Assembly (NCBI RefSeq): GCF_022012475.1
Contig: NZ_JAKLWS010000006.1
Location: 62,001-126,000, forward strand
Direction: 5' to 3'
DNA length: 64,000 bases
Origin: Rhodohalobacter sulfatireducens
GTDB lineage: Bacteria; Bacteroidota; Rhodothermia; Balneolales; Balneolaceae
Shown one piece after another: positions 2,208-17,565 of the stretch. The translations under genes were made by a program, and so were the position numbers. Position 1 is the first letter of the stretch, and every line of letters starts with the position of its first letter. A model generated the notes under the pieces. It saw nothing but the letters and a program-made list of their open reading frames with translations, had not been told where the DNA came from and searched no databases.

Positions 2208-3026
2208 ATGATCATTTCAGTTTTAGGTTGTGGCTGGCTCGGTCTTCCCCTGGCCGAACGGCTGGTTTCACATGAGCATACTATTAAAGGATCAACAACA
2301 ACAGGGGAGAAATTATCCGTATTGAAACAAAGTGGAATTGACGCTTATTTGCTTCAACTCCCTGATTCCATTTCAGATGAAACCATTGAAGACTTCTGGG
2401 ATTGTGATATCCTGTTTTTGAATATTCCACCCGGACGCAGAAATCCAAATATTTTGGAAGAGTTCCCGGCAAATGTTAAAAAAGTTGTGGATAAAGCAAA
2501 GGAACATAAGATCTCCTGGATAATTTTTGCAAGCTCAACCTCCGTTTATCCGAAATTTGGCGGGATAACCGGCGAGGATGAAGCCCAACCGGGGAAAGCA
2601 GCAAGAACCAGTGGTGAAGCGATTTTAAAGGCAGAAGGAATTTTAAAAGATTCGGGAATCGACTACACCATTCTCCGATTTGCAGGTCTTTACGGCTACG
2701 ACCGACACCCTGTAAAATATATGAGCGGAAAGACCGACCTCAAAGAGGGACTGCGCCCCGTTAATCTTGTTCATCAATTGGATTGTGTGAATGTTGTCAC
2801 GGAAATCATCAGCCAAAAGAAAAGAAACGAGATTTACAATGTAGTATCTGATGGACATCCACCGCGAAAAGAGTTTTATAAATGTGCGGCAAAAAGTTTT
2901 GGAATAGCCCCTCCCACTTTTAAAGAGGACGATAATTCAGGATACAGAATTGTATCAAACGAGAAGCTTAAAAAGGATCTGTACTACAAATTTAAATATC
3001 CAAACCCGATGGATCACACCCATTAA
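2208..3026 (+). CDS. Atypical SDR / NAD-dependent epimerase-like protein (YeeZ type)
   Basis: A Rossmann-fold oxidoreductase of the extended/atypical SDR group. The start is taken at ATG 2208 because the protein then begins MIISVLGCGWLGLPLAERL, with the Gly-x-Gly-x-x-Gly NAD(P) motif directly at the N-terminus; an in-frame GTG at 2163 would only add 15 residues without a domain. Later elements are IIFASSTSVYP (the strand carrying the active-site Ser/Thr) and LRFAGLYG, both usual in YeeZ-like proteins, but the classic Tyr-x-x-x-Lys is not evident. Length is 272 residues and no membrane span is seen. Substrate unknown. Its stop overlaps the stop of the convergent DtxR-type gene by 4 nt. Confidence 0.8.
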   Translation: MIISVLGCGWLGLPLAERLVSHEHTIKGSTTTGEKLSVLKQSGIDAYLLQLPDSISDETIEDFWDCDILFLNIPPGRRNPNILEEFPANVKKVVDKAKEHKISWIIFASSTSVYPKFGGITGEDEAQPGKAARTSGEAILKAEGILKDSGIDYTILRFAGLYGYDRHPVKYMSGKTDLKEGLRPVNLVHQLDCVNVVTEIISQKKRNEIYNVVSDGHPPRKEFYKCAAKSFGIAPPTFKEDDNSGYRIVSNEKLKKDLYYKFKYPNPMDHTH

Positions 3027-3697
3027 ATTGCATCGGGCTTCACAACAAAAATATCCTCAGCGATATTATTTGCAATGGTAACAGTATCATTCTCTACTTT
3101 GACTTTCACAGGGCCATCAAATGGTTCTTTATCCAGTACTTTAACTTTCACTCCGGGTATTAGTCCCTGCTTCTCGAGATACCGCAACAACTCAGGATTC
3201 TGGTTTTTCACCCTTCGAATGATGTATGGTGTATCAAACGAAACTGAATGAAGCGGCTTTAATTTAATTTTTGGCATCTTCCCGTCCTTTGTAGGAATCG
3301 GATCACCATGCGGATCTTCTGTCGGATGATTCAGCAGTTCGGCAATTTTGTCCTCAAACTGTTCCGAAATATGGTGCTCAAGTTTCTCAGCTTCATCATG
3401 AACTTCATCCCAGGAATAACCGAGAATCTCTTTCAAATAGAGCTCAAGAAGGCGGTGGTGACGAATAATCTCAAGTGCAATTTTTAAACCGGCTTCTGTC
3501 AGACGTGAACCGTAGTACGACTCATAATTCACCATCTTCATATCTGAAAGGCGTTTCAGCATGTTCGTTACAGAAGCATTTGCAACCCCCATCTCTTCTG
3601 CAAGCCGGGATGTTGAAACTCCTTTATCGGGCGGGGTTTCACTCTCAAGCTTATAAATAGTTTTCAGGTAATCTTCAACGGATTGGCTCCGGGACAT
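3023..3697 (-). CDS. DtxR/MntR-family metal-dependent transcriptional regulator
   Basis: Fe or Mn-responsive repressor. Residues 1-65 form the winged helix (RLAEEMGVANASVTNMLKRL is the recognition region). Residues 70-140 form the dimerisation and metal-binding domain, with HHRLLELYLKE and HDEAEKLEHHIS. The family signature HPTEDPHGDPIP follows at about 124-135. Residues 150-224 are a FeoA/SH3-like domain. At 224 residues it is full length for the three-domain form. It starts at ATG 3695-3697. No metal transporter lies next to it, so its targets are elsewhere; I found no convincing palindromic box in its own short upstream region. Iron versus manganese specificity cannot be decided from what is visible. 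Confidence 0.92.
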   Translation of the reverse strand: MSRSQSVEDYLKTIYKLESETPPDKGVSTSRLAEEMGVANASVTNMLKRLSDMKMVNYESYYGSRLTEAGLKIALEIIRHHRLLELYLKEILGYSWDEVHDEAEKLEHHISEQFEDKIAELLNHPTEDPHGDPIPTKDGKMPKIKLKPLHSVSFDTPYIIRRVKNQNPELLRYLEKQGLIPGVKVKVLDKEPFDGPVKVKVENDTVTIANNIAEDIFVVKPDAI

Positions 3698-15505: not shown

Positions 15506-15799
15506 ATGAATTACAGTGAATTAATTGAACGGCTATCGGATCAAACCGGGAAATCAAAAAAAGAAACCAAGGAACTCCTGAGCGATGCAATTTCAGTTTT
15601 ATCCGACCAGTTGAGTAGTGGAACCGGTGTATCGATCCCCGATTTGGGAACCTTTCAAACCAAGGTTAATGAGGAGAAAAAGGTATACAATCCACATTAT
15701 GATGCCTATATGATTGTTCCACCTAAACGAGTTGTTAATTTCTCGCCCGCTTCGGGGTTAAAGGAAGAGGTCAAGTTTTTGAGTACTGACGAGGATTAA
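15506..15799 (+). CDS. Small HU/IHF-family DNA-binding protein
   Basis: A 97-residue HU-fold protein. The N-terminal helical half (MNYSELIERLSDQTGKSKK) and the SIPDLGTFQTK turn are HU-like. In the DNA-binding arm the usual NPQTG-type tip is replaced by YNPHYDAYMIVPP, so DNA bending by proline intercalation may be altered. The C-terminal tail is acidic. It starts at ATG 15506. The next gene, which also begins with an HU domain, starts 2 bases after this stop, so the two products are made together and could form heterodimers through the HU interface. This is inference from gene order and shared fold. Confidence 0.88.
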   Translation: MNYSELIERLSDQTGKSKKETKELLSDAISVLSDQLSSGTGVSIPDLGTFQTKVNEEKKVYNPHYDAYMIVPPKRVVNFSPASGLKEEVKFLSTDED

Positions 15800-15801
15800 A
15801 A

Positions 15802-17217
15802 ATGAGTGAAAAAATTACATTCAAGGAGTTAGTAGAGCTCATTGCAAAGCAATCCAAGCAGAGTGAATCATCTGCCAACAGCTTTATTCATGAGCTGGTA
15901 CAGATTATTGAAGGTGGTTTAAAGAATAGCGGATCAGTGAGTATTTCGGGGTTTGGCAAGTTTGAACTCCGATGGATGAAAGAACGCTCCGGCGTAAATC
16001 CTCAAACTGGAGATGAGATCACCATTCCGGGGCAAAATAAAGTTGTATTTAAACCATATAAAGCACTTCGAGAGACCGTAAACAAACCATTTGCAAACCT
16101 TGAACCGGAGATTCTTACCGAAAAGAGTGGAACTGAAGAGAGTTCCAAGGAGGAAGATAGTGAGAGTGAAGGTTCTGACGATCCATTTGGACTTGATGAA
16201 ATATTTGGAACAGACGCCCCACAGGATTCTGACTTTGGGGCGGACGATTCTATTAAGTCAAACGATCCTTTTGATTCCGACTCGGATGTAGATTATGATT
16301 CTGAAGATCCTTTTGGGTTTGAAAAAAAAGCAAAAGCATCAAGCCTTTCTCAGGATTATAACAAATACATTGACGACTTGATTTATGAGAAAGAGAACCC
16401 TCATTTTGGCAAATCTGAGCCCCGGGCTGCGGCTAAGGAGAATGATGAGGATGGTGATCTTTTAGTAATGGAACGGGAAAAAAAAGAAGAAGATGGTGAA
16501 GAGCTTCCGAAAGTAGCACCGTCTATTCCCGATGAATCTAAAATGGCAAGAAAAGTCCAGGAATCAGGCAGCTTTAAGTGGTCGTATGCAGCGGCAGTCA
16601 TTATCGTAATGGTGGCGTTAATTCTTCTTTTCTGGATGATGCAGAGAAGCGGGGATAGTCTTGAAGAAACCGCCTCAACTACCAATCCCGGTACTCAAAA
16701 TCAAACCGAGCAGGTTTTAGAACCATCTACTTCTGAAAGTGAAGCTGAGAGTACCGCTGATACTGAAACAGCCGGGGAGCAACAATCGGAAAGCAACGTT
16801 GATGAAGAATCACCTCCAACATCTGGCGAGGCACAAACAACCGGTGAGCTTGAAACTCAATCGTTTACTGTAGAAAGCGGCCAATCCTTATGGGATATTG
16901 CCGAGAATCAGTTGGGCAACCCCTACTTATGGCCGGTTATCTATTATCTCAACCAGGATATATTAAGCAATCCCAATCAATTGCTCGCCAACTCTGACAT
17001 AGATATTCCTACCTTTTCCGACCCTGATAATTTGAGTGAATTTGAAAGAGAACAGGTTGCTCTTGGATATTTTTCACTTTATCAATGGAATCAGGAGAAT
17101 AATCCTGATGAAGCGAGATACTTTTTATGGGCCGTCGGGGTCTTCTCGCAGGACCTTCTGGATCAACCCCCATCTGATGTTGATCCTGAAGATTTGGCTT
17201 TTGCGAGAAACAGATAG
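15802..17217 (+). CDS. Membrane-spanning HU-LysM fusion protein
   Basis: A 471-residue fusion. Residues 1-95 are a full HU domain with SGFGKFELR at 49-57 and the DNA-arm tip GVNPQTGDEITIP at 64-76. Residues 100-250 are an acidic, disordered linker with three DPF-type repeats (DDPFGLDEIFG, SNDPFDSD, EDPFGFEKK). Residues 261-279 are one hydrophobic span, preceded by Lys/Arg and followed by an acidic Ser/Thr/Glu-rich stretch, which predicts N-inside, C-outside. Residues 353-405 are a LysM-like domain (TVESGQSLWDIAENQLGNPYLWP). The tail 406-471 is helical. Domain content predicts DNA binding in the cytoplasm and peptidoglycan binding in the periplasm. It follows the small HU gene by 2 bases. The function as a nucleoid-to-wall tether is inference. 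Confidence 0.9.
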   Translation: MSEKITFKELVELIAKQSKQSESSANSFIHELVQIIEGGLKNSGSVSISGFGKFELRWMKERSGVNPQTGDEITIPGQNKVVFKPYKALRETVNKPFANLEPEILTEKSGTEESSKEEDSESEGSDDPFGLDEIFGTDAPQDSDFGADDSIKSNDPFDSDSDVDYDSEDPFGFEKKAKASSLSQDYNKYIDDLIYEKENPHFGKSEPRAAAKENDEDGDLLVMEREKKEEDGEELPKVAPSIPDESKMARKVQESGSFKWSYAAAVIIVMVALILLFWMMQRSGDSLEETASTTNPGTQNQTEQVLEPSTSESEAESTADTETAGEQQSESNVDEESPPTSGEAQTTGELETQSFTVESGQSLWDIAENQLGNPYLWPVIYYLNQDILSNPNQLLANSDIDIPTFSDPDNLSEFEREQVALGYFSLYQWNQENNPDEARYFLWAVGVFSQDLLDQPPSDVDPEDLAFARNR

Positions 17218-17253: not shown

Positions 17254-17565
17254 ATGATACGTCATATTGTAATGTGGAAACTGAAAGAGAACGCTGCAGG
17301 CGCTACAAAGAAGAAAAATGCCGAAAAACTAAAGCTAATCCTGGAAGGATTGAGAGCAAATATTGAGGAGATTAAAGCTGTTGAGGTTGGAATTCAAATC
17401 AACGGTGATGAAGAGGATTCCCTCGATGTGGTTTTAACATGTGATTTTGAGACTGAACTTGATTTCCAGATGTATACACGAAATCCTCATCACAAAAAAG
17501 CAATCGATTTTATCGAGGAAGTTGCTGATGAACGATTCTTTGTTGATTACAAAGTTGATCTCTGA
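17254..17565 (+). CDS. Dabb-family (stress-responsive alpha-beta barrel) protein
   Basis: A 103-residue ferredoxin-like dimeric alpha+beta barrel protein. The family start MIRHIVMWKLKE is present and the C-terminal DFQMYTRNPHHKKAIDFIEEV matches the usual Y-x-x-HP-x-H helix. No signal peptide, so cytoplasmic. Dabb proteins range from stress-induced proteins to cyclases, and nothing here indicates a substrate. Start is ATG 17254 with a GGAG-like sequence about 10 bases upstream. It lies 36 bases after the HU-LysM gene on the same strand and may be read through from it. Confidence 0.92.
   Translation: MIRHIVMWKLKENAAGATKKKNAEKLKLILEGLRANIEEIKAVEVGIQINGDEEDSLDVVLTCDFETELDFQMYTRNPHHKKAIDFIEEVADERFFVDYKVDL

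Follow-up and report, generated by a model that had tools for sequence, protein, structure and literature searches.

The window analysed here, 64,000 nucleotides from the 5.1 Mb genome of Rhodohalobacter sulfatireducens (contig NZ_JAKLWS010000006.1, positions 62,001 to 126,000), carries a two-gene pair that is a widespread LysM-ended form of a predicted HU-to-envelope tether, the LysM form being the new part. Sequence comparison and structure prediction together establish the domain order and topology signal of the large protein, the pairing and ancestry of the two genes and the asymmetry of their HU arms. That the two HUs form a heterodimer which, through LysM, tethers the nucleoid to the wall is a reasonable hypothesis, now better supported by the pairing, the ancestry and the exchange of arms between partners; we put the probability of this reading, with the DNA binding, peptidoglycan binding, dimerisation and tethering that it would entail, at about one half.

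Both open reading frames (ORFs) lie where the earlier note had placed them, on the plus strand and separated by 2 bases. The first (15506-15799) encodes a small HU of 97 amino acids (aa) with an altered arm, YNPHY, and is the proposed heterodimer partner; the second (15802-17217) encodes a 471-aa protein with an HU domain, acidic linker, transmembrane (TM) helix, LysM domain and helical tail. Both products match the HU/IHF superfamily model PF00216 (E = 4.7e-21 and 1.2e-23), scoring 75.3 and 83.5 bits, respectively, against a cut-off of 22.4. In the large protein this match covers residues 7-94 of an HU domain spanning residues 1-95 (15802-16086), and the intact DNA arm described earlier is present in its canonical form, R-x-G-x-N-P-Q-T-G. 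An AlphaFold2 model of the large protein, built from a 17-member alignment, has an HU fold at residues 1-95 (fold match to HU structures with Z about 10), a TM helix at 259-282, a LysM unit at 352-403 and a helical tail, joined by disordered linkers. The tail (17038-17211; helices 413-470, pLDDT >85) is kept in Balneolaceae alignments and is mostly different in homologues from a second order (described below). Spurious or chance ORFs are ruled out, since both genes are conserved, as a pair, across dozens of genomes. A plasmid-borne element was likewise rejected: none of the plasmid records matches the large protein over 80% of its length, and the matches listed are ordinary HUs.

Among 146 genomes of the class searched with a profile, 60 of them from Balneolaceae, the large protein was found in 49 of the 60 and in no other family sampled. 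Named relatives at the HU-pair locus are Balneolaceae, and scanning named genomes for the small HU gave 24 loci, their labels being Balneola, Balneolaceae genera, Balneolales or Rhodothermia; all 24 have the large gene directly downstream. The idea of a gene confined to Balneolaceae was overturned by a LysM-profile search over the phylum, Bacteroidota: LysM matches in a second order proved to be HU-TM-LysM genes, seen in genomes of another family whose LysM-bearing ORF has the arrangement HU, acidic linker, TM, LysM, with a small HU upstream. Of 198 genomes in that second order, 36 are matched by a profile of these proteins (some matches cover part of the profile), and their spread over many families hints that the order may be Bacteroidales. 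Alignments of the Balneolaceae and second-order proteins agree with probability 100 and E = 1e-45 over residues 1-110 (hhalign). The aligned region reaches beyond the HU family model in both lineages, taking in a post-HU extension, VNxPFAxLE, which lies at 16084-16119 in the window and is common to the second-order homologues.

A second locus in the same genome (L005:457-1867, minus strand, contig C127) encodes a 69-aa HU whose gene overlaps the start of that for a 415-aa protein with an HU domain, acidic linker, TM and SPOR domain. This SPOR-ended HU pair is also split in two genes in other Rhodothermia and in further Balneolaceae genomes; in other families of the phylum, two HU domains matching PF18174 and PF18175 occur in one chain with a TM and SPOR. 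In an AlphaFold model of a single-chain HU-HU-SPOR protein, made to look for a pseudo-dimer, both HU halves fold (pLDDT mostly 80-90) and match HU monomers weakly (best E = 0.012); given a pTM of 0.41, the predicted arrangement of the halves was set aside as proof. Such CCDC81-type Bacteroidota HU proteins (Burroughs et al. 2017, Cell Cycle 16:1093, cited in PMC5906684) resemble the window pair in having two HU domains, a linker, one TM and a C-terminal glycan-binding domain. They differ in ending with SPOR, in matching PF18174 and PF18175 and in carrying their HU domains either in one chain or split, whereas the window pair passes PF00216, ends with LysM and, in all loci examined, has its HUs in separate genes. 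PF18175 scores 18.6 bits on the large protein (cut-off 35) and PF18174 12.7 bits on the small one (cut-off 26), and a Pfam search of the window protein gave no SPOR match. Because both scores fall below their cut-offs and a LysM domain is present, we class the window pair as a sister kind of the CCDC81-type group, not a member of it. Full-text searches of the literature for HU+LysM or HU+SPOR proteins returned nothing usable. The survey of HU+TM+LysM architectures proposed in the earlier note thus finds the arrangement in 49 of 60 Balneolaceae genomes and in many second-order families; the novelty that the note had tentatively attached to it was overstated, given this recurrence and the presence in Pfam of HU domains from the sister HU-HU-TM-SPOR proteins.

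A domain search of both termini, also suggested earlier, gives a significant HU match at the N-terminus and, by profile and fold, a LysM domain at the C-terminus (residues 352-404, 16855-17013). This LysM is divergent: the Pfam model (PF01476) scores 10.6 bits against a cut-off of 20.9 in the window protein and misses most homologues, its best match among those of the second order having E = 1e-4. The large protein does match the NCBIfam BON-LysM model (E = 9.6e-8), and among PDB entries the family profile matches the LysM domains of Kbp (7pvc; E = 4.9e-11) and TsaP (E = 4.7e-6). In the AlphaFold2 model, residues 352-403 adopt the LysM beta-alpha-alpha-beta fold with pLDDT >90, superimposing on the Kbp LysM with an rmsd of 1.0-1.3 A over 54-56 residues (Z 5.7-6.7). 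On these profile and fold matches, rather than on the Pfam score, the modelled C-terminal domain belongs to the wider LysM fold, as the earlier note had supposed. The closest solved LysM domain is that of Kbp (YgaU), a BON-LysM potassium-binding protein, and this, together with the low Pfam scores, allows the domain to be read as LysM by fold that has some other ligand or a periplasmic partner in place of peptidoglycan. We regard this as quite unlikely: in Kbp a BON domain precedes the LysM, whereas the window protein carries an HU domain and a TM instead and has no BON domain in a Pfam search at E up to 1; the LysM of TsaP is also a significant match; and the sister family has SPOR, another glycan-binding domain, at the same place.

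The single membrane span with an inside-positive flank that had been proposed is confirmed by the predicted TM helix (residues 259-282, 16576-16647) and by an excess of lysine and arginine on its N-terminal side. In 45 Balneolaceae homologues, the 15 residues before the TM hold 3.2 K/R and those after it 0.8 (p = 7.5e-9), and in the second order the values are 3.7 and 2.2 (p = 0.002), both p values being optimistic as the sequences are related. By the positive-inside rule, this excess places the HU domain in the cytoplasm and, past a further linker (16648-16854) that is disordered over most of its length (pLDDT <50), the LysM domain in the predicted periplasm. The cytoplasmic linker (16120-16575) is disordered nearly throughout (pLDDT <50) and, as described earlier, is acidic with three DPF motifs; these motifs are not conserved, however, occurring in 18 of 45 Balneolaceae homologues and in none of 31 others, and the linker was rejected as a conserved functional repeat. 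Across homologues it is about 30% D/E, ranges from 25 to 351 aa and lacks a conserved sequence, for which reasons a flexible spacer would fit better than a specific regulator, including the regulator of reach or DNA competition envisaged in the note. In one homologue (locus L011:1420-2631) the linker is a long Glu-Pro repeat, whose antisense strand gives a Trp-Leu repeat ORF.

The small HU was present in all 17 of the first homologous loci. Over all loci fetched, an HU ORF ends within 80 nt upstream of 75 of 76 distinct HU+LysM ORFs, most often overlapping the HU+LysM gene by 4, 8 or 11 nt; 21 of the 76 came from a scan baited with the small HU, and 54 of the other 55 are paired. In a tree of 69 HU domains, all sampled large-protein HUs form one group (support 99/97) and all small HUs another (100/98), although with 90 columns the alignment is short and does not support a finer branching order. 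Both groups contain both lineages, and canonical HU/IHF proteins fall in neither. This separation of large from small HUs points to an ancestral pair, the simplest reading being that it predates the split of the two lineages.

The pair has no fixed neighbour, and the flanking genes vary between genera. In the window, an aconitase gene lies upstream on the opposite strand, and a gene for a Dabb (stress-responsive A/B barrel) protein (17254-17565) begins 36 bases beyond the HU pair, on its strand, and is possibly co-transcribed with it. On short flanks, which make the counts lower bounds, Dabb is near at least 22 of 45 Balneolaceae loci and HemW near at least 21 of 45. Among second-order loci, motif counts show a MoxR-type ATPase gene beginning in at least 17 of 31, typically downstream, and a RimO-like C-terminus upstream in at least 9 of 31 (one MoxR and one RimO example were confirmed with Pfam). 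These neighbours do not settle a function for the pair. At L138:704-3607, a transposase-like ORF (2369-3607) takes the place after the HU pair that the MoxR-type gene occupies in many relatives. The recurrence of MoxR and of the stress-type Dabb gene would suit a membrane-bound one-component sensor, in which the LysM domain and tail sense the state of the wall and the HU pair affects either transcription or how DNA is bent locally, close to the membrane; the union of a DNA-binding fold, a TM and a periplasmic domain in one chain is in keeping with this. Long linkers of such variable length are poor signal transmitters, however, and HU proteins are generally not known to recognise specific operators, which leaves a sensor quite unlikely.

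The two HU arms were compared in 45 Balneolaceae and 30 second-order pairs (E. coli numbering). In Balneolaceae, the large HU has R58, G60, P63, T65 and K83 in all 45, and the small HU has P63 in 45, Tyr61 in 44, His64 in 45 and Tyr65 in 42, with R58 in 8 and K83 in 7. The altered arm that had been ascribed to the small HU is thus partly so: R58, R61, T65 and K83 are mostly replaced, but N62 and P63 are kept, both of them in the window protein. In the second order, it is the small HU that holds P63 (27 of 30) and R58 (25 of 30), and in the large HU position 63 is V, I or E in 24 of 30 and the arm is shortened in 4 of 30; the divergent second-order pairs L164 and L223 have the Balneolaceae arm pattern. 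As a rule, then, one partner has a canonical arm and the other an altered or lost one, the roles being exchanged between the lineages. Since independent homodimers would not readily allow such an exchange, it supports an obligate heterodimer of the small HU and the HU of the large protein. Four HU-TM-LysM proteins (L213, L217, L220 and L222) have no DNA arm, and their small partners retain an arm-length loop.

The net charge of the HU domains in the pair sums to between -6 and +4, as against about +8 for the E. coli HU dimer. Charge proved uninformative as a test of DNA binding, the canonical HU of the source genome being near neutral too (net -2). Together with the altered arm in each pair, the armless large HUs and a CCDC81-type sister family, the low charge is nevertheless what might be expected had the HU pair come to bind protein, with the complex acting in the envelope as a scaffold for division or shape. 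There are precedents: the N-terminal helix-turn-helix of RodZ binds MreB, not DNA, and the HU domains of eukaryotic CCDC81 are thought to bind protein. Yet the invariance of the five arm residues of the Balneolaceae large HU is not easily accounted for unless DNA is contacted, and the second-order small HU holds P63 and R58 at the frequencies given above; we therefore consider a scaffold of this kind unlikely, if worth keeping in mind.

Among better-known systems, the window pair shares with HU and IHF the fold, the arm motif and the PF00216 match, and as a two-gene pair it resembles the HU-alpha/beta and IHF heterodimers; it differs in being membrane-anchored through one subunit, and on the tree neither subunit groups with canonical HU/IHF. 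FimV and HubP are polar organisers, and HubP of Vibrio has been linked to chromosome positioning. In FimV/HubP proteins the LysM sits N-terminally and a FimV domain C-terminally, whereas the window protein has a C-terminal LysM and no match to the FimV C-terminal domain in Pfam or NCBIfam; FimV/HubP reach DNA via ParA-type partners, whereas the window protein would contact it directly through HU. A periplasmic LysM-like domain, a TM and an acidic cytoplasmic region, which PMC12918733 describes for FimV/HubP, are also found in the window protein, where their location is by prediction.

We favour the tether on account of the HU and LysM folds, the one TM with its positive N-terminal side, the pairing, the ancestry, the complementarity of the arms and the SPOR-ended sisters. 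In the proposed mechanism, the small HU and the HU of the large protein would form an obligate heterodimer in the cytoplasm, binding DNA mainly via the one arm kept canonical. The acidic disordered linker would serve as a flexible leash, the TM helix would cross the inner membrane and the LysM domain would hold peptidoglycan in the periplasm, so that the complex would tie the nucleoid to the wall. With LysM at the position of SPOR, it would correspond to the CCDC81-type HU proteins of Bacteroidota; Burroughs and co-workers reportedly suggested that these take part in chromosome partition. Counting against a tether are the low net charge of the HU domains, the identity of the nearest solved LysM (Kbp) and the four armless second-order large HUs, in which DNA contact is perhaps dispensable.

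What holds a bacterial chromosome in place with respect to the envelope is still an open question, and little is known of the machinery in Bacteroidota, a major phylum. More broadly, and quite tentatively, Bacteroidota may carry two parallel nucleoid-to-wall tethers built on HU heterodimers, one SPOR-ended and one LysM-ended, the latter independent of the septal glycan read by SPOR, with one arm of each pair used for DNA and the other repurposed. If this is true, a single protein would connect DNA to peptidoglycan while its paralogue reads another glycan feature, and deletion would put the question directly to the test. The natural exchange of the kept arm would also be well suited to studying what a lone arm can do in an HU dimer.
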